A stretch of DNA of 22,201 bases, from the IMG/VR virus record IMGVR_UViG_3300017741_001638, positions 1 to 22,201 of that record, one strand, 5' to 3'. This document shows, piece after piece, positions 4,122-13,731 of the stretch (position 1 is the stretch's first letter; each line of letters starts with the position of its first letter). The position numbers were made by a program, and so were the translations under genes. The notes under the pieces are model-generated. The model searched no databases. It saw only the letters and a program-made list of their open reading frames with translations, and was not told the origin of the DNA. The stretch is from a virus.

Positions 4122-4234
4122 ACGAGGCGATAGAAGAAAAGAATTGGGATTTAGTTCACGAAGTTAAAGAACAATTAATAGAACTGAACCTTGATAATCC
4201 CTTTGATGGTTATGTTGGAGAAGATTGGGGCTGA
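4091..4234 (+). CDS. Small acidic helical protein, 47 aa, running into the tmRNA gene
   Basis: ATG at 4091 is preceded by a good AAGGAAG ribosome binding site; a more upstream ATG in frame (4040) lies deep inside the previous gene. The product is acidic and helical (two similar helices around residues 4-32, DKLDEAIEEKNWDLVHEVKE) ending in DGYVGEDWG. Its last codons (GGGGC TGA) use the first eight bases of the tmRNA, so the stop codon sits inside the tmRNA acceptor/5' sequence. Function unknown. Confidence 0.55.
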   Translation: MDLQEVLDKLDEAIEEKNWDLVHEVKEQLIELNLDNPFDGYVGEDWG

Positions 4235-4636
4235 CACGGTTTCGACATATGCTATTTGAAAATAAAGTGCAACAGAGATTGAGTATATCTCGTAACAAAA
4301 GACTCACAATTGAAAATGGCGATAAATCGCTACAAGGGTTGAAGGTGGATTGGCACCTAGCTAATTCAGAGATGATGTTTGACACTTTTGTTGAACCAGC
4401 TCGTACCTCTCAACAATCTTACGCTTACGCTTAAGATACTGAGTTAGTCCACGCTCGGTTATAAAATAAGATGGACAGGATCGTCATCGTAGGAAGACAA
4501 TAAACCCTACCAGTCGTCAATCTGTAAACTGGCCATGGTGGGTTGTAGGTAACTACCGCATTTGGAACCTAACTAAGTTGTGAATGACTTTATTTTTGGA
4601 GGTATTTGGACGTGGGTTCGATTCCCACCAGCTCCA
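4227..4636 (+). ncRNA. ssrA: Phage-encoded one-piece tmRNA
   Basis: tmRNA rescues stalled ribosomes by acting as both tRNA-Ala and mRNA for a degradation tag. The 5' end GGGGCTGACACGGTTTCGAC is the classical tmRNA start. The 3' end carries a T arm (GTGGG-TTCGATT-CCCAC) and CAGCTCC, which pairs with GGGGCTG and includes the G3:U70 pair recognised by AlaRS. CCA is not fully encoded. Pseudoknot PK1 is visible: GAGAT 4275-4279/ATCTC 4287-4291 and TGAGT 4280-4284/ACTCA 4302-4306. Eleven bases later comes an in-frame GGC (4318), the likely resume codon; the tag frame ends with QQSYAYA-stop (4432-4434). Helix H5 flanks the stop: CTCA 4409-4412/TGAG 4440-4443 and TCTTA 4417-4421/TAAGA 4432-4436. The rest holds further pseudoknots I did not resolve fully. 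Confidence 0.95.
4318..4434 (+). other. tmRNA tag reading frame (38 codons plus stop)
   Basis: Reading from the GGC placed 11 nt after PK1, the mRNA-like part codes for a 38-residue tag starting GDKSLQG and ending QQSYAYA before TAA. E. coli uses about 10 residues ending YALAA. The SYAYA end is a plausible protease degron (small/hydrophobic C-terminus). A shorter variant starting at an internal Ala-Asn (GCTAAT at 4360-4365, tag ANSEMMF...) would be 24 residues, so the exact resume codon is uncertain; the stop is well supported by H5. Confidence 0.6.
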
Positions 4637-4698
4637 CAAATTTTGGTTATTTTTAATTTTTAACGAATACTTATAATAGAACAAGGAATGGTAAAAAT

Positions 4699-5217
4699 AT
4701 GAATAAATACAGTATGATGTTTATGACCTTAATTTTGGTCACCTACGCAAATGGTATTGTTTCAACAAAATTCTTAAGTGATAAAAATATTGAGATTAAA
4801 AGTCTGCTAGATGAAAATAAAAGACTGGCAGAAAATCTCAACAAGTACGAAACAGAGGGTATGAAAGTGACAGTAACAATGTACGAACCCGTACCTCGTC
4901 AGACAGATTCTACACCGAACATTCTCGCGGATGGAACGCGCATAAAAACTCACAACGCATCTGAGTACAAATTCATAGCGGTTAGTAGAAATCTTTTGAA
5001 AAGGTGGGGCGGTTGGCTGGATTATGGTGACTTTATACTCTTAAAAGGTACTGATGGTAAAGATGGTATTTATCAAGTTAGGGATACGATGGCTGCACGA
5101 TGGGTAAATCGTATCGATATATTAGAATCACCTAACACTAAGCCTTATAAATTTACAGAGGCTGAGATTGTCAAAACAGATTTAGTCGCAGACAGGAAAA
5201 TAATACTTGACAATTGA
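4699..5217 (+). CDS. Membrane-anchored 3D-domain (double-psi beta-barrel) protein, 172 aa
   Basis: An N-terminal hydrophobic segment (residues 5-22) acts as a signal anchor, followed by a short coil (28-50). From about residue 56 it matches the 3D domain found in MltA-like lytic transglycosylases, RlpA-type and YabE-type proteins: MYEPVPRQTD, ILADGTRIK, FIAVSRNLL, GDFILL and the terminal VRDTMAARWVNRIDIL with its conserved aspartates (D129, D140). Such domains act on or bind peptidoglycan. A phage copy exported to the periplasm would suit cell-wall work at lysis or entry. The ATG has an AAGGAA ribosome binding site, and a TATAAT at 4672-4677 may be a weak promoter. The end overlaps the -35 box of promoter P3. 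Catalytic activity is not proven by sequence. Confidence 0.8.
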   Translation: MNKYSMMFMTLILVTYANGIVSTKFLSDKNIEIKSLLDENKRLAENLNKYETEGMKVTVTMYEPVPRQTDSTPNILADGTRIKTHNASEYKFIAVSRNLLKRWGGWLDYGDFILLKGTDGKDGIYQVRDTMAARWVNRIDILESPNTKPYKFTEAEIVKTDLVADRKIILDN

Positions 5218-5243
5218 TAAATAATTTCGTATATTTAGGTATG
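5207..5243 (+). promoter_or_regulatory. Sigma70-type promoter P3
   Basis: TTGACA (5207-5212), a 17-nt spacer, TATATT (5230-5235), then TAGGTATG. It matches P1 and P2 in both boxes and in the WAGGTRT that follows. The -35 box lies over the stop codon of the 3D-domain gene. The spacer contains GATAAATA, a T4-late-like string, so the site could in principle also be read late; the -35/-10 reading is better supported. Confidence 0.75.
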
Positions 5244-5262: not shown

Positions 5263-6453
5263 ATGTTTGATAAATTCTTTGATGTAGAAGAGTTTGATTA
5301 CGAGCTTGAAAAAAAGAAATTCGTAGATAATATGAATTTTCTTAAATCAATGTCGGTTCAAGAAATCACCCTATACAAAAAGTGGGAAGAGTTCAATAAG
5401 GACTCTTACGCTATGTTACAAAAAGCTTCCAAGTTTGATATATTAGAAAACACAATATGGATGCCATCCGACATCTATAATAAAGAACAAACCATAAAAG
5501 AGATAGAAGCGATTAGTCCTATCATACAAGTTGTAGAGCAGGGTAATCCTAAAGATAGTGACAATTGGACTATACTAAGAAGATTAATTCATACAATGGA
5601 GTTTACTGCTAATCCTGGCAGAAACGTAAAGTTCTATGTCAAAGATAAAAATACAGATAAAGTTTTAGGTCTTATATGTTTAGGTTCTGATGTTACATCA
5701 TTAGGCGCTCGTGACAAGTATATCGGTTGGACTAAGGATAATAAATTTAAGGATGGTAAATTAAATCATACATCAATCGGTACAACCATATGTTGTGTTC
5801 AACCATTAGGATTTAATTTCTTAGGTGGTAAGTTAGTAGCAGCTATGGTTACATCAAAGGTTGTTCGTGATACTTGGAAAAAATTATATAATCAAACGCT
5901 GGTCGGATTATCCACCACATCACTATATGGTATACACTCTATGTATAATGGTATTCCACATTGGAAAACATTAGGAGAATCATCAGGTAGAATAAGTTTG
6001 AAGCCAGATGACTCGGCTTACGATGTTTGGCATGAATGGATTAAAAAGAATAAGTCAGAAGAATATAAAAAGGCTACTACATCTAAAGAGGGTGTATCAG
6101 GTCCAGCTACAGGTGTGAAACAAAAAATTATAAAATTAATCTACGATGAGTTAGGTTTAAAACTTAAAACCTTTGAACATGGATTTCAACGTGGAATTTA
6201 CTTCGCTGACATCTACGAGAATGGTAGACCATTCCTTAGAGGTGAGATAGAAGAAAAAGATTTGGTTATGAAAAAGAAGTACGATGAAAATATAGAGTAC
6301 ATCGAAAGATGGTGGAAACCAAAAGCAATAAGAAGATACACCAAGTTGTTAGAGCAAAATAAGATAAAGCCAGAGAAGTTATTCTACGGCGATATTTTAA
6401 ATACAAGTTGGGAAGAAACTAAGAAAAAATATTTAGGAGAAGTGGGTCGGTAA
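5263..6453 (+). CDS. DUF4338/DruA-like protein, 396 aa
   Basis: Residues about 88-222 look like the DUF4338 (DruA) family: IIQVVEQGNPKD, then KVLGLICLGSDVTSLGARDKYIGW (133-156) with the family's hallmark LGSD and RDxYIGW blocks, then a FLGGKLVAAMVTSKVV block (186-201) and a C-terminal LVGLSTTSLYG. DruA is a component of the Druantia defence system; its biochemical activity is not known to me. The C-terminal 170 residues are basic and unassigned (RWWKPKAIRRYTKLL). The gene has its own promoter (P3) and starts with ATG at 5263. It neighbours a DUF262-like gene, so a defence, counter-defence or host-control role is plausible but inferred. Family call is from memory of the motif pattern. Confidence 0.6.
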   Translation: MFDKFFDVEEFDYELEKKKFVDNMNFLKSMSVQEITLYKKWEEFNKDSYAMLQKASKFDILENTIWMPSDIYNKEQTIKEIEAISPIIQVVEQGNPKDSDNWTILRRLIHTMEFTANPGRNVKFYVKDKNTDKVLGLICLGSDVTSLGARDKYIGWTKDNKFKDGKLNHTSIGTTICCVQPLGFNFLGGKLVAAMVTSKVVRDTWKKLYNQTLVGLSTTSLYGIHSMYNGIPHWKTLGESSGRISLKPDDSAYDVWHEWIKKNKSEEYKKATTSKEGVSGPATGVKQKIIKLIYDELGLKLKTFEHGFQRGIYFADIYENGRPFLRGEIEEKDLVMKKKYDENIEYIERWWKPKAIRRYTKLLEQNKIKPEKLFYGDILNTSWEETKKKYLGEVGR

Positions 6454-6555
6454 TTTTTTTTATGTTTTTAGAAAATAATATTATATTTAATATAGATATG
6501 GTTTTACGAAATCGCCATAAGTATTTCGCACACAAACTAATAAAAGAGGTTCATA
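6454..6555 (+). promoter_or_regulatory. AT-rich leader with short inverted repeat
   Basis: This 102-nt gap before the gene at 6556 starts with an eight-T run that might help stop transcription, but no convincing hairpin precedes it. A 6-bp inverted repeat CGAAAT (6507-6512)/ATTTCG (6523-6528) with a 10-nt loop lies 28 nt before the ATG and could be a hairpin or an operator. An AGAGG ribosome binding site follows. I see no -35/-10 pair like P1-P3 here. Confidence 0.35.
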
Positions 6556-8343
6556 ATGAACAAACAACAACGAACGGTTAAGCTCGACCGTCTAATAAAA
6601 CAAGAAGCGCCAGATTGGTTAACTGATGAAGAATATCAAATATATAACGAGAGGCGTTCAACGTTAAGAGCTAATTTCGAAGTAGAAAAACATATAGAAA
6701 AAATATTTGGTGTATCTCTAAACGGTATATCAGCTCATCCAACTTGGAAGTCATATTCTTTTAGTATAAGTCCAAAATTATTATTGGAACAATACAATAA
6801 GGAGTGCCTCTTTTCTGAACCAGGAAGTGGTCAAGACCCTAAAGAGTATTCAAGCACTAACCTTAAAACTACCGCGCATCATGGTGGTAGACATTGGGGT
6901 TGGGATGTAAACGTAGATGAGAATGGAAAACGCTTACCCAGCAATTCTCAATGGATTGAGAGTGGTACTTTTAATCTCGTTCAGTATCCTAATGGTAAGG
7001 TTGTATTAGAACCATGTAATGTTGAACACAGGTTATGGGGTTTGATAGGATTTCCACTTGATATCGCTCCTATTGATTCTAAACAAGACTTATGGTTTTA
7101 TGATGATAGATTGCCAGAGATTCACGATGAGAAGAATGACGTAATGGTTCGTGGATTTAAAGTCAATAAAATGTATCTATCAGATATAATCAAAAAGTGT
7201 GATGGATATGGTATTAGCGTTACTGAATCTGATATCCTCGATACACACTTTTACAAAAATAATTTTAACTTTACGATACTTCCTTTTTATTCTAAGGAAG
7301 AATGTGAACACTATTTTAGAGAGGTTAATACTTCTTCAGCCAAAACAAGACTCCAGCTTCATCACGCAGAGTCAAGTGAGATTATGGATTGGTGGAAGTC
7401 TTACTCTTCTCCTAAATGTGTAAACTTTAAACCAATGGGATGTAACTATCATCCATTAATTGAACTTGTACCTGATAAGGAGAAAGTAAAGTTAGAGGGA
7501 TTAGCATACATGATGTTAGTCTCTGATTTTATGTCTACAGATAAAACACCAGTTGATTCTACGGATGCCAAGTTAATTGAAAGATATCATCACACTAACG
7601 CATACGCTAATATGTTTGATGAAGATTTCAAAGAAAATGTAATCGATGGATTAGATTATGTTTATGATTTGGTTTCATCCTCAAGTGCACCAATCAAACT
7701 TTCAAGACAGATGATTCAACAACTTCTTACAATGAGAAAGTTTTTGGACTTCAATGGATACGTAATCCAAGACTCCATCTCGTTTATGGAAGAATACGTA
7801 AAGTATTATAAAGAAGCACAAGAGGATGATGATGATAACTTGACACCATTCGGTCGTAATGTCCGTTCAGGTTCTAAAGTTAATTCTAAAAACGCATTCT
7901 TGACTACAAGAAAAGACTTTCTTAAGAGTATAACAGATATTGATTATCTTGAATCAATTGGTATAGTACCACAGGCTGAAAGTTTAAAGAGAGTTTTCAG
8001 TAGAGATGTCATTTCAGAAAATCTTGAAATTAACAATGGTGAGGACATAGATGGTAAAGAGTTGTTAACCTCGCCAGTTGGTGGACACATCATATCAGAT
8101 ATGGAATTGATAAGGATGACCGATAAAGAGAGAGATGAGGCTTTTAAAGCAGAGGGTCTTGGTGATGAATTTGATTTCGATAAAAACTGCAGAGCTATGA
8201 GTTCTTATCATAATCAAAGAATGGGTGTCCTCAGATTGAGTGAATATCTTTTGGTTATTAACGAAACAGATAGTGTTGTTAGAGCACGTAGAATGATAAA
8301 GTACAATGAAGTAAAAGCTAAAGTGGTAACTGAGGCGGCTTAA
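6556..8343 (+). CDS. Large DUF262/DGQHR-like protein, 595 aa
   Basis: The N-terminal 280 residues look like a divergent member of the ParB-like DUF262/DGQHR superfamily. A strand ending in VVLEPCNVEHRLWGLIGF (149-166) sits where relatives have DGQHR followed by RLWAL, and YSKEECEHYFREVNTSSAKT (245-264) matches the F-x-x-x-N block that precedes a Leu...Glu helix. DUF262 proteins include GmrSD-type restriction enzymes, and DGQHR proteins include DndB. The canonical Asp-Gly-Gln is replaced by Asn-Val-Glu, so the usual nuclease/NTP site may be altered. The middle (420-450) has an acidic DDDDN stretch and the C-terminus is helical. ATG has an AGAGG ribosome binding site; the following gene starts directly at its stop. 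Assignment is tentative. Confidence 0.55.
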   Translation: MNKQQRTVKLDRLIKQEAPDWLTDEEYQIYNERRSTLRANFEVEKHIEKIFGVSLNGISAHPTWKSYSFSISPKLLLEQYNKECLFSEPGSGQDPKEYSSTNLKTTAHHGGRHWGWDVNVDENGKRLPSNSQWIESGTFNLVQYPNGKVVLEPCNVEHRLWGLIGFPLDIAPIDSKQDLWFYDDRLPEIHDEKNDVMVRGFKVNKMYLSDIIKKCDGYGISVTESDILDTHFYKNNFNFTILPFYSKEECEHYFREVNTSSAKTRLQLHHAESSEIMDWWKSYSSPKCVNFKPMGCNYHPLIELVPDKEKVKLEGLAYMMLVSDFMSTDKTPVDSTDAKLIERYHHTNAYANMFDEDFKENVIDGLDYVYDLVSSSSAPIKLSRQMIQQLLTMRKFLDFNGYVIQDSISFMEEYVKYYKEAQEDDDDNLTPFGRNVRSGSKVNSKNAFLTTRKDFLKSITDIDYLESIGIVPQAESLKRVFSRDVISENLEINNGEDIDGKELLTSPVGGHIISDMELIRMTDKERDEAFKAEGLGDEFDFDKNCRAMSSYHNQRMGVLRLSEYLLVINETDSVVRARRMIKYNEVKAKVVTEAA

Positions 8344-9693
8344 TTGAATATATTTCAATTCACAGATGTAACGGACAACGACAAAGAATATAAGTACAAG
8401 ATACTTGTATATCCAAATATCACATACCTAAAAGATTTGGAAAAAGATTCTTTCGTCGTTGTCCTTGGCAACATCATTCGAGAGTTAAATAAAATTAGAA
8501 ATGATTTACATTTCACGATAATTGTGCCTGAGTTTGTAAATAGTTTAAAATTTTCTAACACCGAACAATTACCATTAAAGAATGCTTTCTTAGGATATCC
8601 AAATTCGATGAGAATGGATTTTCCATTTCAAGATGTTTTCAAGGCTATAGATTGGAAAAGTTCTGATTATGATATTGTGTATTCTCATTTACCAGAGCAT
8701 ACGGGTAATCTAAAATGTTTATTAGAAAATACTACAAATATCAGACCATCTTTTATGGGTTATACTCATTGGACAGAATTAAAAGAGATTACAAATTATC
8801 ATTATAAAACTGGCTTGTCATATAACATTACTGGTCTTTTGGAAATGGAAAAATGTGGTGTGAATACACAAGCACAAAAAGATTTAATAATTAAAAATGC
8901 AAAAGAATATTTTAATGATGATGTGATTTCTAAATTAGATAATATTCTTGAACCACATTATCTTGGATGGGAAACTCCAAAGTATAAAAAACAAACCACG
9001 GATAAAAAGATTATTGTTTATAATCACAGACCACATACCTATAAAAACTATCCTTGGTTTTTAGAACAGATGGATAAGTTGTGGGAGCAAAGACAAGATT
9101 TTGAGGTATGGGTTCCGTTGGCTGAGAAGAAACAAAAAGATTATATGACAGTTGAAAAGTTTGATAGGGTTGGTTACTTTTCAAAACTTTCAAGTTGTGT
9201 GGTTGGTGTTTGTTGTAAACAGAAGTATGAGGGTTGGGCAGTATCAGCTACGGATGGTATGAGTGTGGGTGTTCCTTATATGTTTTCGGATGATGATAGT
9301 TACCATGAGTTAGCAGATTATGCTGGAATATATTATACGGACTCAGATAGTTTTCTTAATTTGATGAATACAGTATTGGATGATAATGATTTCAGAAATC
9401 AATATTCAAAAATGTCATTACTAAGATTTGAAAACTCAAAATGGGAAAACGCTATACATAAATTTAATCATTCTTTTAATGAGGTCATTAATAATTTACC
9501 AATTTTAAAAGATAAAACAGATTCTTATAAAAAGATTTTAAACTATATTCATAGTCGAGGTGGAGCAACAAAAAAAGAAATATTAGACTATATGGGATGG
9601 GGTGTAAGAATAGGGTTTAATGGATATAGAAACAAATTAAGAACCGAGCCTACAATTAGGTTCACTAAAAATAGATACGAGGTTATAAAATGA
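8344..9693 (+). CDS. GT-B glycosyltransferase with extra C-terminal domain, 449 aa
   Basis: The central and C-terminal parts look like a GT4-type GT-B glycosyltransferase that moves a sugar from a nucleotide donor. IIVYNHRPHTYKNYPWFLEQ (223-242) is the start of the second Rossmann domain, and YEGWAVSATDGMSVGVPYMFSDDDSYHEL (295-322) is the donor-binding E-x(7)-E-like region, here with GVP and an acidic patch. The N-terminal Rossmann half contains VYSHLPEHTG and GYTHWTEL. Residues about 395-449 (IHSRGGATKKEILDYMGWGV then a basic segment) form a winged-helix-like add-on. TTG start directly follows the previous stop; the 3' end overlaps the HD gene by 4 nt. Possible targets are phage DNA or host surface glycan; neither is shown. 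Confidence 0.8.
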   Translation: MNIFQFTDVTDNDKEYKYKILVYPNITYLKDLEKDSFVVVLGNIIRELNKIRNDLHFTIIVPEFVNSLKFSNTEQLPLKNAFLGYPNSMRMDFPFQDVFKAIDWKSSDYDIVYSHLPEHTGNLKCLLENTTNIRPSFMGYTHWTELKEITNYHYKTGLSYNITGLLEMEKCGVNTQAQKDLIIKNAKEYFNDDVISKLDNILEPHYLGWETPKYKKQTTDKKIIVYNHRPHTYKNYPWFLEQMDKLWEQRQDFEVWVPLAEKKQKDYMTVEKFDRVGYFSKLSSCVVGVCCKQKYEGWAVSATDGMSVGVPYMFSDDDSYHELADYAGIYYTDSDSFLNLMNTVLDDNDFRNQYSKMSLLRFENSKWENAIHKFNHSFNEVINNLPILKDKTDSYKKILNYIHSRGGATKKEILDYMGWGVRIGFNGYRNKLRTEPTIRFTKNRYEVIK

Positions 9694-10463
9694 AAGAATT
9701 AACACCTGAACAGATTCAAAAGAATTGGGAGCAATTAAGAAATCTTGTTTCCAATACCTTTGAGGGTGAACGTTTAGAAAAACTAAACAAGATGTATGAC
9801 TACTTTGAGGATAGGATGTGTATAGCTCCAGCGAGTGCTAAAGAACATTTTCACTATGCTCACGTTGGTGGTTATGTTGAACACGTCTTACACGTTGTTG
9901 ATTGTGCTCTCAAAGTCATGAACCTTTGGAGTGCAGAGGGAGCTACGATAAACTTTGATGTCGAAGAAGTTATCTTTGCAGCTCTACATCACGACTTAGG
10001 TAAGGTTGGTGATATGGATAAAGATTATTATGTACCACAAGAATCAGAGTGGCATAGAAAGAATCGTGGTGAGATATTCACACACAATGGTGCTTTACAA
10101 TACATGACTGTTACGGATAGAGCAGTATACATTCTTAATCAGTTTCAGATTCCAATGTCAGAGAATGAATACATAGGTTTACGATTAGCAGATGGTATGT
10201 ACGAGGATGCAAATAAGTCTTACTATATGTCTTATAATCCTGATTGGGCTTTGAAGTCAAACATCGCATATGTTTTACATCAAGCAGATATGATGGCTAC
10301 TAAGATTGAGTATGACGAATTCAAACGTGGTGAGGTTGAAGAAGAAGTTAAGGTACAAGAAAAAGTTGAAAACATTAAGAAAGCAGTAACGATGGAAGAA
10401 ACGTCAGACCAATTATCTAAAAAATCAAAAGACCTTTTTGATGAATTGTTTGGAGAGAAATAA
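9690..10463 (+). CDS. HD-domain metal-dependent phosphohydrolase, 257 aa
   Basis: HD-superfamily enzymes hydrolyse phosphate esters, often of nucleotides, with a divalent metal. The metal ligands are visible: His65 in GGYVEHVLHVV (a typical first-helix histidine), the HHDLGK motif (His100, His101, Asp102) and Asp200 in VLHQADMMATK. The C-terminal 50 residues are charged and coiled (EEEVKVQEKVENIKKAVTME). The substrate is unknown; phage HD proteins have been linked to nucleotide pools or signalling nucleotides. The start ATG overlaps the glycosyltransferase stop (ATGA), and its own stop overlaps the next ATG (TAATG), so the block is co-translated. Confidence 0.88.
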   Translation: MKELTPEQIQKNWEQLRNLVSNTFEGERLEKLNKMYDYFEDRMCIAPASAKEHFHYAHVGGYVEHVLHVVDCALKVMNLWSAEGATINFDVEEVIFAALHHDLGKVGDMDKDYYVPQESEWHRKNRGEIFTHNGALQYMTVTDRAVYILNQFQIPMSENEYIGLRLADGMYEDANKSYYMSYNPDWALKSNIAYVLHQADMMATKIEYDEFKRGEVEEEVKVQEKVENIKKAVTMEETSDQLSKKSKDLFDELFGEK

Positions 10464-12483: not shown

Positions 12484-12556
12484 GGGGCTGTAGCTCAGTT
12501 GGGAGAGCGCCGCACTTGCACTGCGGAGGTCGCAGGTTCGATTCCTGTCAGCTCCA
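12484..12556 (+). tRNA. tRNA-Ala (anticodon UGC)
   Basis: A full 73-nt cloverleaf: acceptor GGGGCTG/CAGCTCC with the G3:U70 alanine pair, D arm GCTC/GAGC, anticodon stem CCGCA/TGCGG with loop CTTGCAC (anticodon TGC), and T arm GCAGG/CCTGT around TTCGATT. Discriminator A; CCA is not encoded. The acceptor arm is identical to that of the tmRNA at 4227, so the two RNAs share the AlaRS identity elements. Confidence 0.97.
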
Positions 12557-12566
12557 CAAGATTGTT

Positions 12567-13241
12567 ATGATAGAAATAAATAAATATAAAAATTACGATG
12601 AGATGTCTAAGTGGGTAGTAGAACAAATCAGAGATGCTATCAACTTTAATTCTGTAACAAAACATTTTACATTAGGATTAGCAACTGGTTCTACACCACT
12701 TGGTATATATAAATACATGCGTGATGAGACTTGGGATTCTAAAAAGGTATATACATTTAATCTTGATGAGTATGCCGACTTACCATACAACCATCCACAA
12801 TCATATGAACACTTCATGGAAGAAAACTTATTTGCATATAAACAATTTAGATATAGTTATTTCCCTGAGAATGAAAGGTATGATGACATCATTAAGAACA
12901 ATGGTGGTATAGATATACAAATACTTGGTATTGGTACTAACGGACATATAGCATTTAATGAACCAGGCTCACCAAGAGATTCTCTTACAAGGAAAGTGGA
13001 GTTAACAGAAAATACACGTAAGGATAACAGTAGGTTCTTTGATATTATTGATGATGTCCCAACTCATGCTTGGACTATGGGGATAGAAAGTATTATGAGA
13101 GCTAAACAAATTTATCTGTTAGCTAATGGTAAACACAAGAAAGATATTTTAGAGAAAGCATGTTATGGTGATATCACTTCAGACATACCGGCTTCCTATT
13201 TACAAGAACACAATAATATAGAGGTATTGTACTGTGATTGA
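12567..13241 (+). CDS. nagB: NagB-like glucosamine-6-phosphate deaminase, 224 aa
   Basis: Converts glucosamine-6-phosphate to fructose-6-phosphate and ammonia. Matches the NagB/6-phosphogluconolactonase family: LGLATGSTP (36-44, phosphate loop), FNLDEY (64-69, with the catalytic Asp67), GIGTNGHIAFNEPG (121-134, with the catalytic His127 and Glu132), then a RKDNSRFF block and TMGIESIMRAK (170-180). NagB of some bacteria also has Asn at the position of E. coli Asp141 (here Asn125), so this is not by itself a sign of inactivation. The C-terminus ends soon after the core. ATG at 12567 is chosen; the frame continues upstream into the tRNA gene, which cannot be coding. The next gene overlaps by 8 nt, giving a two-gene amino-sugar unit. 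Confidence 0.88.
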   Translation: MIEINKYKNYDEMSKWVVEQIRDAINFNSVTKHFTLGLATGSTPLGIYKYMRDETWDSKKVYTFNLDEYADLPYNHPQSYEHFMEENLFAYKQFRYSYFPENERYDDIIKNNGGIDIQILGIGTNGHIAFNEPGSPRDSLTRKVELTENTRKDNSRFFDIIDDVPTHAWTMGIESIMRAKQIYLLANGKHKKDILEKACYGDITSDIPASYLQEHNNIEVLYCD

Positions 13242-13731
13242 CAAAATAATGATTGTTGCTCATCCTGATGATGAGGCGTTATTTGGTGGGGCTGAATTAC
13301 TATCCCATCCAGATGAATATAAAGTTGTAGTATTAGATGAGTATCAGAATGATATAAGAAGAAGAGAGTTCTTAGATAGTATGAGGTTTATCGGTATTCA
13401 CGAATACGAACATTGGACTGGCTTCAAAGGTGCTGAGGATTATTATAGGGAAAAACTTATATATGAACTACTGAGAGTTTTAAGGGAAAGAAAATATACC
13501 AAGATAGTAACACACAATACCGATGGAGAATATGGACACCCGCGACATAGAGCTTGTCACGATGTATTGTCACACCTTAGACCTGAGAAACTATGGGTGT
13601 TTGGTAGGGGTGAAAAATTAGATGACGATATGATAAAAAGAAAAAGTGAATTGTTAAAGGTATATAAATCACAAGTAGAAGTTTTAGATTGGTTTAATTG
13701 GGAATATGAAACGATAAGAAAATTTCAATAA
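13234..13731 (+). CDS. PIG-L/LmbE-family deacetylase-like protein, 165 aa
   Basis: Zinc-dependent deacetylases of the PIG-L (LmbE) family remove acetyl groups from N-acetylglucosamine compounds. The hallmark AHPDDE (residues 9-14) opens the protein, with a likely second metal-ligand cluster in THNTDGEYGHPRHRACHD (93-110), whose GHPRH fits the family's HPDH-type block. At 165 aa it is shorter than many members (over 200 aa), so it may be a minimal core. GTG at 13234 overlaps the nagB stop, implying coupling. Paired with NagB it could deacetylate GlcNAc-type substrates and feed the deaminase; the actual substrate (free sugar, glycan, conjugate) cannot be read from sequence. Confidence 0.78.
   Translation: MIDKIMIVAHPDDEALFGGAELLSHPDEYKVVVLDEYQNDIRRREFLDSMRFIGIHEYEHWTGFKGAEDYYREKLIYELLRVLRERKYTKIVTHNTDGEYGHPRHRACHDVLSHLRPEKLWVFGRGEKLDDDMIKRKSELLKVYKSQVEVLDWFNWEYETIRKFQ

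Follow-up and report, generated by a model that had tools for sequence, protein, structure and literature searches.

Two consecutive genes of a phage, each resembling a bacterial defence gene, raise the question of whether they work together or merely stand side by side. The original prediction for this DNA called the first DruA-like and the second DUF262-like, and suggested for them counter-defence, superinfection exclusion or targeting of the host genome. The window, that is, the whole stretch of DNA analysed, spans 22,201 bases and is one virus record of IMG/VR. Its predicted origin, a marine T4-like phage, was confirmed by its relatives, nearly all of which are metagenomic contigs, many of them incomplete. 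Both open reading frames were confirmed on the + strand, one directly after the other. The features of the region are as follows.

5207..5235, + strand: sigma-70-like promoter TTGACA-17-TATATT ahead of the druA-like gene; 11 of 12 consensus bases
5263..6453, + strand: gene 1, druA-like gene of the PF14236 family, 396 aa; GNAT-like fold probable; resident gene that flanks the slot on the left
6454..8343, no strand: variable cargo slot, from the druA stop to the glycosyltransferase start
6556..8343, + strand: gene 2, the cargo gene, 595 aa; N-terminal part divergent DUF262/GmrS-like (ParB/Srx-type), helical middle, C-terminal part HNH-like
7018..7032, + strand: NVEHR, residues 155–159 of gene 2; aligns to the DGQQR motif of GmrS; DVEHR in L099
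7315..7329, + strand: FxxxN, F254–N258 of gene 2; aligns to the FxxxN motif of GmrS/DGQHR domains
8080..8214, + strand: HNH-like GGH(511)...N(544)-x8-N(553) of gene 2, a motif reading only
8344..9693, + strand: Glycos_transf_1-like glycosyltransferase bearing an extra C-terminal domain of 57 aa; flanks the slot on the right; Pfam E 4.3e-5
9690..10463, + strand: HD-domain protein, the conserved gene after the glycosyltransferase

An early-type promoter had been predicted for gene 1. The site itself is present, as one of four + strand sites of such quality in the window. It is identical in L024 and absent from L007, the nearest relative. The total of promoter-like sites between 4400 and 10500 shows no excess over shuffled sequence (27 observed against 27.7). 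Two further near-consensus promoter-like sites, TTGACA-18-TATATT, lie at 1415–1444 and 1927–1956, and the phage may have in them a class of early promoters. Close upstream of the druA region, at 4227–4639 on the + strand, there is a phage tmRNA (Rfam RF00023, 102 bits, E 3e-39), which ARAGORN did not detect. This block shows 67–81% identity in L007, L008, L011, L013, L015, and L052, and its candidate tag reading frame has the terminus ...ANSEMMFDTFVEPARTSQQSYAYA.

Gene 1 and the DruA family

The sequence of gene 1 makes its membership in the DruA family clear, exactly as predicted. It matches Pfam PF14236 with an E value of 2.1e-28 (99.8 bits, cut-off 27) and the PADLOC model DruA1 with 4.6e-25. 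The AlphaFold2 model of the protein has a pLDDT of 83. In a Foldseek search with this model, the highest-ranking PDB structures were GNAT acetyltransferases (prob no higher than 0.98, lowest E 0.02, TM not above 0.49), and GNAT enzymes made up the majority of the top 50. Judged from the model, a GNAT-like fold is probable. The DUF4338 domain has been named a GNAT domain (PMC10853773). DruA-like proteins of Synechococcus phages were reported before in the Phold paper (PMC12774648), so their presence in such phages is already known and is not new here.

Relatives of gene 1 were found by tblastn in 31 isolate phage records, among them 25 of Synechococcus phages and 3 of Pelagibacter phages. They sit in the replication regions of these phages. 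The relative in S-SSM7 lies between the clamp-loader genes gp44 and gp62, those in Mosig and HTVC008M lie within the uvsW-gp55-CobS region, and the druA gene of L059 adjoins a clamp-loader ATPase. The druA-like gene is thus a resident of the replication region in many marine T4-like phages.

Gene 1 belongs to PF14236/DUF4338, as do the published Synechococcus phage proteins. It differs from the DruA of Druantia in its residence in a phage replication region and in the company it keeps. A YprA/DruE-type helicase, recognised by its MZB/DUF1998 domain, occurred in none of ten DruA-bearing phage records, three of which are complete genomes; the same search was positive in 8 of 14 control genomes. 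The window holds no open reading frame longer than 662 aa. Because the DruE-type domain is missing from these ten records, gene 1 is assigned to the DruA family but not to a Druantia system, and Druantia on the phage was rejected as an identification. That the two genes form a reduced Druantia-like defence system carried by the phage could be argued from the family of gene 1, but the absence of the MZB domain, together with a gene pair that is not conserved, makes this extremely unlikely. Very improbable, too, is a counter-defence role in which the DruA-like protein poisons a Druantia complex of the host and the DUF262-like protein antagonises a DUF262 system of the host. Homology to bacterial defence proteins favours such a role, but in many marine T4-like phages the druA-like gene is a resident of the replication region near clamp-loader genes, and ordinary restriction-modification genes can take the place of gene 2 (below). 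We found no support for the predicted counter-defence against Druantia.

The phage DNA-modifying enzyme Mom (PF25680) is likewise a GNAT. Its profile is dissimilar to that of DruA (hhalign E 0.14), and DruA as a Mom relative was rejected.

The slot between druA and the glycosyltransferase

The gene order in the clade of the window is druA, slot, glycosyltransferase, HD protein. In blastn comparisons of the window with its relatives, similarity ends at about 6447–6455, at the druA stop, and returns at about 8341–8345, at the glycosyltransferase start. In L007, whose DruA is 84% identical to that of the window, the glycosyltransferase follows druA directly and the slot is empty. Among 32 DruA loci, 18 slots were filled and 14 empty; no glycosyltransferase was seen at five of the empty loci (L020, L022, L024, L031, and L038), where the HD gene comes directly after druA. 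In a 32-leaf DruA tree, which like the glycosyltransferase tree was a quick one with no bootstrap, the content of the slot changed at least 17 times. The DruA proteins of L011, L023, and L047 lie on very short branches of this tree, and their cargo is wholly different. Genes of restriction or modification type occupy half of the filled slots (9 of 18) and comprise methyltransferases, EcoRI-like and HNH genes, Mom with endonuclease VII, and one recognisable DUF262 gene. The contents are listed by locus.

L008: Mom and endonuclease VII
L012: N6 methyltransferase and ResIII helicase
L013, at L013:9329-12780: 518-aa protein, EcoRI-like nuclease (PF02963, E 5e-11), and D12 adenine methyltransferase
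L014: methyltransferase, called by likeness to the L012 gene and not by its own scan
L047: methyltransferase
L019: D12 methyltransferase
L015 and L028: HNH genes
L018: 588-aa DUF262 protein (Pfam GmrSD_N, E 5e-4), with DUF262 relatives on plasmids
L010 and L050: glycosyltransferases
L011:11215-13065, L023:11298-13247, L009:1186-2283, L041:1141-2685, L016:4414-4992, and L036:1306-2511: genes with no significant Pfam match

The set in L013 has the look of a complete restriction-modification set in a phage. By their position, the six unmatched genes are candidates for new restriction or modification functions.

As read from these sequences, the slot is a site where marine T4-like phages of this clade swap genes, and the recognisable ones are mostly for restriction or DNA modification. 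T4-like phages are known to have intergenic exchange hotspots, in which non-essential genes are swapped between conserved ones. The slot resembles such hotspots in that it also exchanges genes between conserved neighbours, and differs from them in being rich in restriction and modification genes and in being bracketed by druA and a glycosyltransferase. Close relatives have different genes for cutting or marking DNA at precisely this site, which points to an exchange, among these phages, of weapons against the DNA of rivals.

A reading of the two neighbouring genes as a functional pair is not supported by this comparison: druA is resident, and the gene 2 that follows it is a cargo for which many others can stand. 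Conservation of the pair was examined in other T4-like marine phages, and gene 2 stood next to druA at no other sampled DruA locus whose downstream side is visible. DruA with gene 2 as a conserved unit was therefore rejected, since the two do not occur side by side at these loci.

Homing-type endonucleases are common between the genes of T4-like phages, and the slot could be an insertion site for selfish elements of this kind, with gene 2 mobile and of no benefit to the phage. Seamless insertion between conserved genes, high turnover, and several cargoes of HNH or endonuclease VII type are what one would see in that case. But much of the cargo is something other than a nuclease, or consists of whole restriction-modification pairs or of glycosyltransferases, and the cargo follows the glycosyltransferase allele (below). 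A DUF262-type architecture is not known from homing enzymes. We consider this explanation unlikely.

Gene 2 and its distant kin

Gene 2 had been called DUF262-like. Nothing in Pfam, PHROGs, NCBIfam, PADLOC or the PDB sequences matches it, GmrSD_N (PF03235), the family model of DUF262, included. A tblastn search of isolate phages gave no match either. Two single-sequence scans of viral contigs returned as their sole match a contig that encodes the identical protein. We recruited a family with the degenerate pattern N-x-E-H-R-L-W-G (NVEHRLWG in gene 2) and then with alignment-based scans, which yielded nine sequences of 39–50% identity to gene 2. No member was found when genome contigs were scanned with this family.

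The family was compared by hhalign with a reference set made up of DUF262 proteins of plasmids and the L018 slot protein. The E values were 0.005–0.01, and the HH probability was low (4–7%). The score of 30.05 exceeded the maximum of 29.0 among 200 block shuffles, and all 200 shuffles were beaten in each of two trials; unrelated profiles scored 14–22. The widest alignment covers 283 columns and places NVEHR over DGQQR and F254xxxN258 over FxxxN in collinear order. The positions of these two motifs in GmrS have been described (PMC4619093). DGQQR itself is missing from gene 2, and the FxxxN motif is in the expected place. Structure prediction for gene 2 gave a poor model (pLDDT 45), for which no matching fold was found. 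On this sequence evidence the link to DUF262 is weak, at the edge of significance, and gene 2 is probably a distant relative of DUF262/GmrS and not a member of the family. Taken as distant homology, the predicted likeness to DUF262 thus probably stands; taken as membership, it does not.

In its length of about 600 aa and in its collinear motifs, gene 2 is like the GmrS/DUF262 proteins (GmrSD Type IV restriction, BrxU, and SspE); it differs from them in lacking a Pfam match, in having NVEHR or DVEHR in place of DGQQR, and in being borne by a phage. The ParB-superfamily proteins of DGQHR/DndB type are similar at the level of motifs, namely the H-R end (DVEHR compared with DGQHR) and FxxxN, and gene 2 differs from these by its additional C-terminal HNH-like part.

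The C-terminal 60 residues, which contain GGH...N-x8-N, are the best conserved part of the gene 2 family. GH511, N544, and N553 are conserved, and the HNH reading comes from the motif; this part has no Pfam match. The N-x8-N spacing is identical to that in the HNH motif of GmrD (PMC4619093), and gene 2 has GH where GmrD has DH. The sequence is compatible with a possible HNH-like nuclease part at the C-terminus.

Glycosyltransferase linkage and proposed function

The recurrent partner of gene 2 is the downstream glycosyltransferase and not DruA. The match of the window glycosyltransferase to Pfam Glycos_transf_1 falls slightly short of the cut-off. A homologous glycosyltransferase follows the gene 2 homologs at five loci (L065, L067, L107, L098, and L101). 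In the glycosyltransferase tree, the window groups with L015 (HNH cargo), L018 (DUF262 cargo), and L098 and L101 (gene 2 family), and L007, nearest by DruA and with an empty slot, lies apart from this group. In the DruA tree, unlike in the glycosyltransferase tree, the window joins L007 and L008. Because the partners of the window differ between the two trees, cargo and glycosyltransferase seem to move together, with DruA outside the moving unit.

At L065, L067, and L107 the gene 2 homolog is immediately preceded by a Mom gene, and DruA is further downstream, kilobases away. The order in this second lineage is Mom, gene 2, glycosyltransferase, DNA polymerase. Mom genes occur in many related contigs, up to four per contig; the window has none. 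This neighbourhood bears on the possibility that gene 2 is not a nuclease at all and serves as a partner or regulator in DNA hypermodification with Mom and the glycosyltransferase, in a role like that of DndB or a ParB/Srx NTPase. The position of the gene 2 homologs at these three loci, immediately between the two enzymes, favours such a role, as does the example of DndB, which belongs to the ParB superfamily and is part of a system that modifies DNA (PMC10853773). But the slot of L018 is filled by a protein that is recognisably DUF262 and equally long, conservation in the gene 2 family is highest at the HNH-like C-terminus, and no gene for the synthesis of a hydroxymethyl base was found (no thymidylate-synthase-family hydroxymethylase in 25 related records). 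We regard a hypermodification role as rather unlikely. Glycosylation of the DNA is unproven because of the same missing gene.

Our preferred reading, held with moderate confidence, is that gene 1 borders an exchange slot on its left and gene 2 is the cargo in it, and that this cargo would be a solitary nuclease-like protein for DNA discrimination. The slot, its turnover, the types of cargo, the cargo–glycosyltransferase linkage, and the DruA membership of gene 1 are read from the DNA itself. We infer the nuclease activity of gene 2, its target and the self-protection of the phage. The N-terminal ParB/Srx-type part, with its distant GmrS/DUF262 kin, would bind NTP or sense DNA, and the C-terminal HNH-like part would cleave. 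The protein would most likely attack DNA unlike that of the phage, either the host chromosome or that of co-infecting phages. The DNA of the phage would be spared through its own modification state, to which the linked glycosyltransferase may contribute. A role in conflict between genomes, whether by excluding superinfecting phages or by attacking foreign DNA, would fit the cargo types of the slot. Counting against our reading are the lack of any curated model that recognises gene 2, the low HH probability and modest E values of the DUF262 alignment, the altered DGQQR, the G in place of the D of the GmrD-type DH pair, the poor structure model, the absence of a hydroxymethylase gene that would point to DNA as the substrate of the glycosyltransferase, and the six filled slots without genes of recognised function.

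A more specific form of this proposal, quite unlikely in our estimate, is that the cargo and its glycosyltransferase allele, with Mom or DruA acyl-type enzymes nearby, constitute a self-protecting system. Its nuclease, GmrS-like but from a new family, would spare DNA with the phage's sugar or acyl mark and cut unmarked or rival-marked DNA, and the system would be exchanged as a module at the druA–glycosyltransferase slot. GmrSD and other Type IV enzymes are known as weapons of bacteria against T4-like phages. If the preferred reading is true, abundant T4-like viruses of the ocean trade DNA-discrimination weapons among themselves; this meaning is based on divergent GmrSD relatives linked to glycosyltransferases, in a slot shared with pairs of EcoRI-like and methylase genes. 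The interval between druA and the glycosyltransferase would then be a simple address for collecting new nucleases and modification enzymes.

Three further observations concern the neighbouring genes. The 57-aa C-terminal domain of the glycosyltransferase (9517–9690, + strand; consensus end ...LRTEPTIxFTKNRYEV) is highly conserved in the clade of the window, missing in L065 and L067, without a Pfam match, and possibly DNA-binding. Several Mom genes can occur in one phage contig, with four in tandem in that of L044 (G020:C1:22737-25762) and three in that of L023 (G013). The window also has, at 12516–13731 (+ strand), adjacent genes for a NagB-like glucosamine-6-phosphate isomerase (PF01182) and a PIG-L type de-N-acetylase (PF02585), and among the related loci examined this duo is present only in the contig with the identical gene 2.
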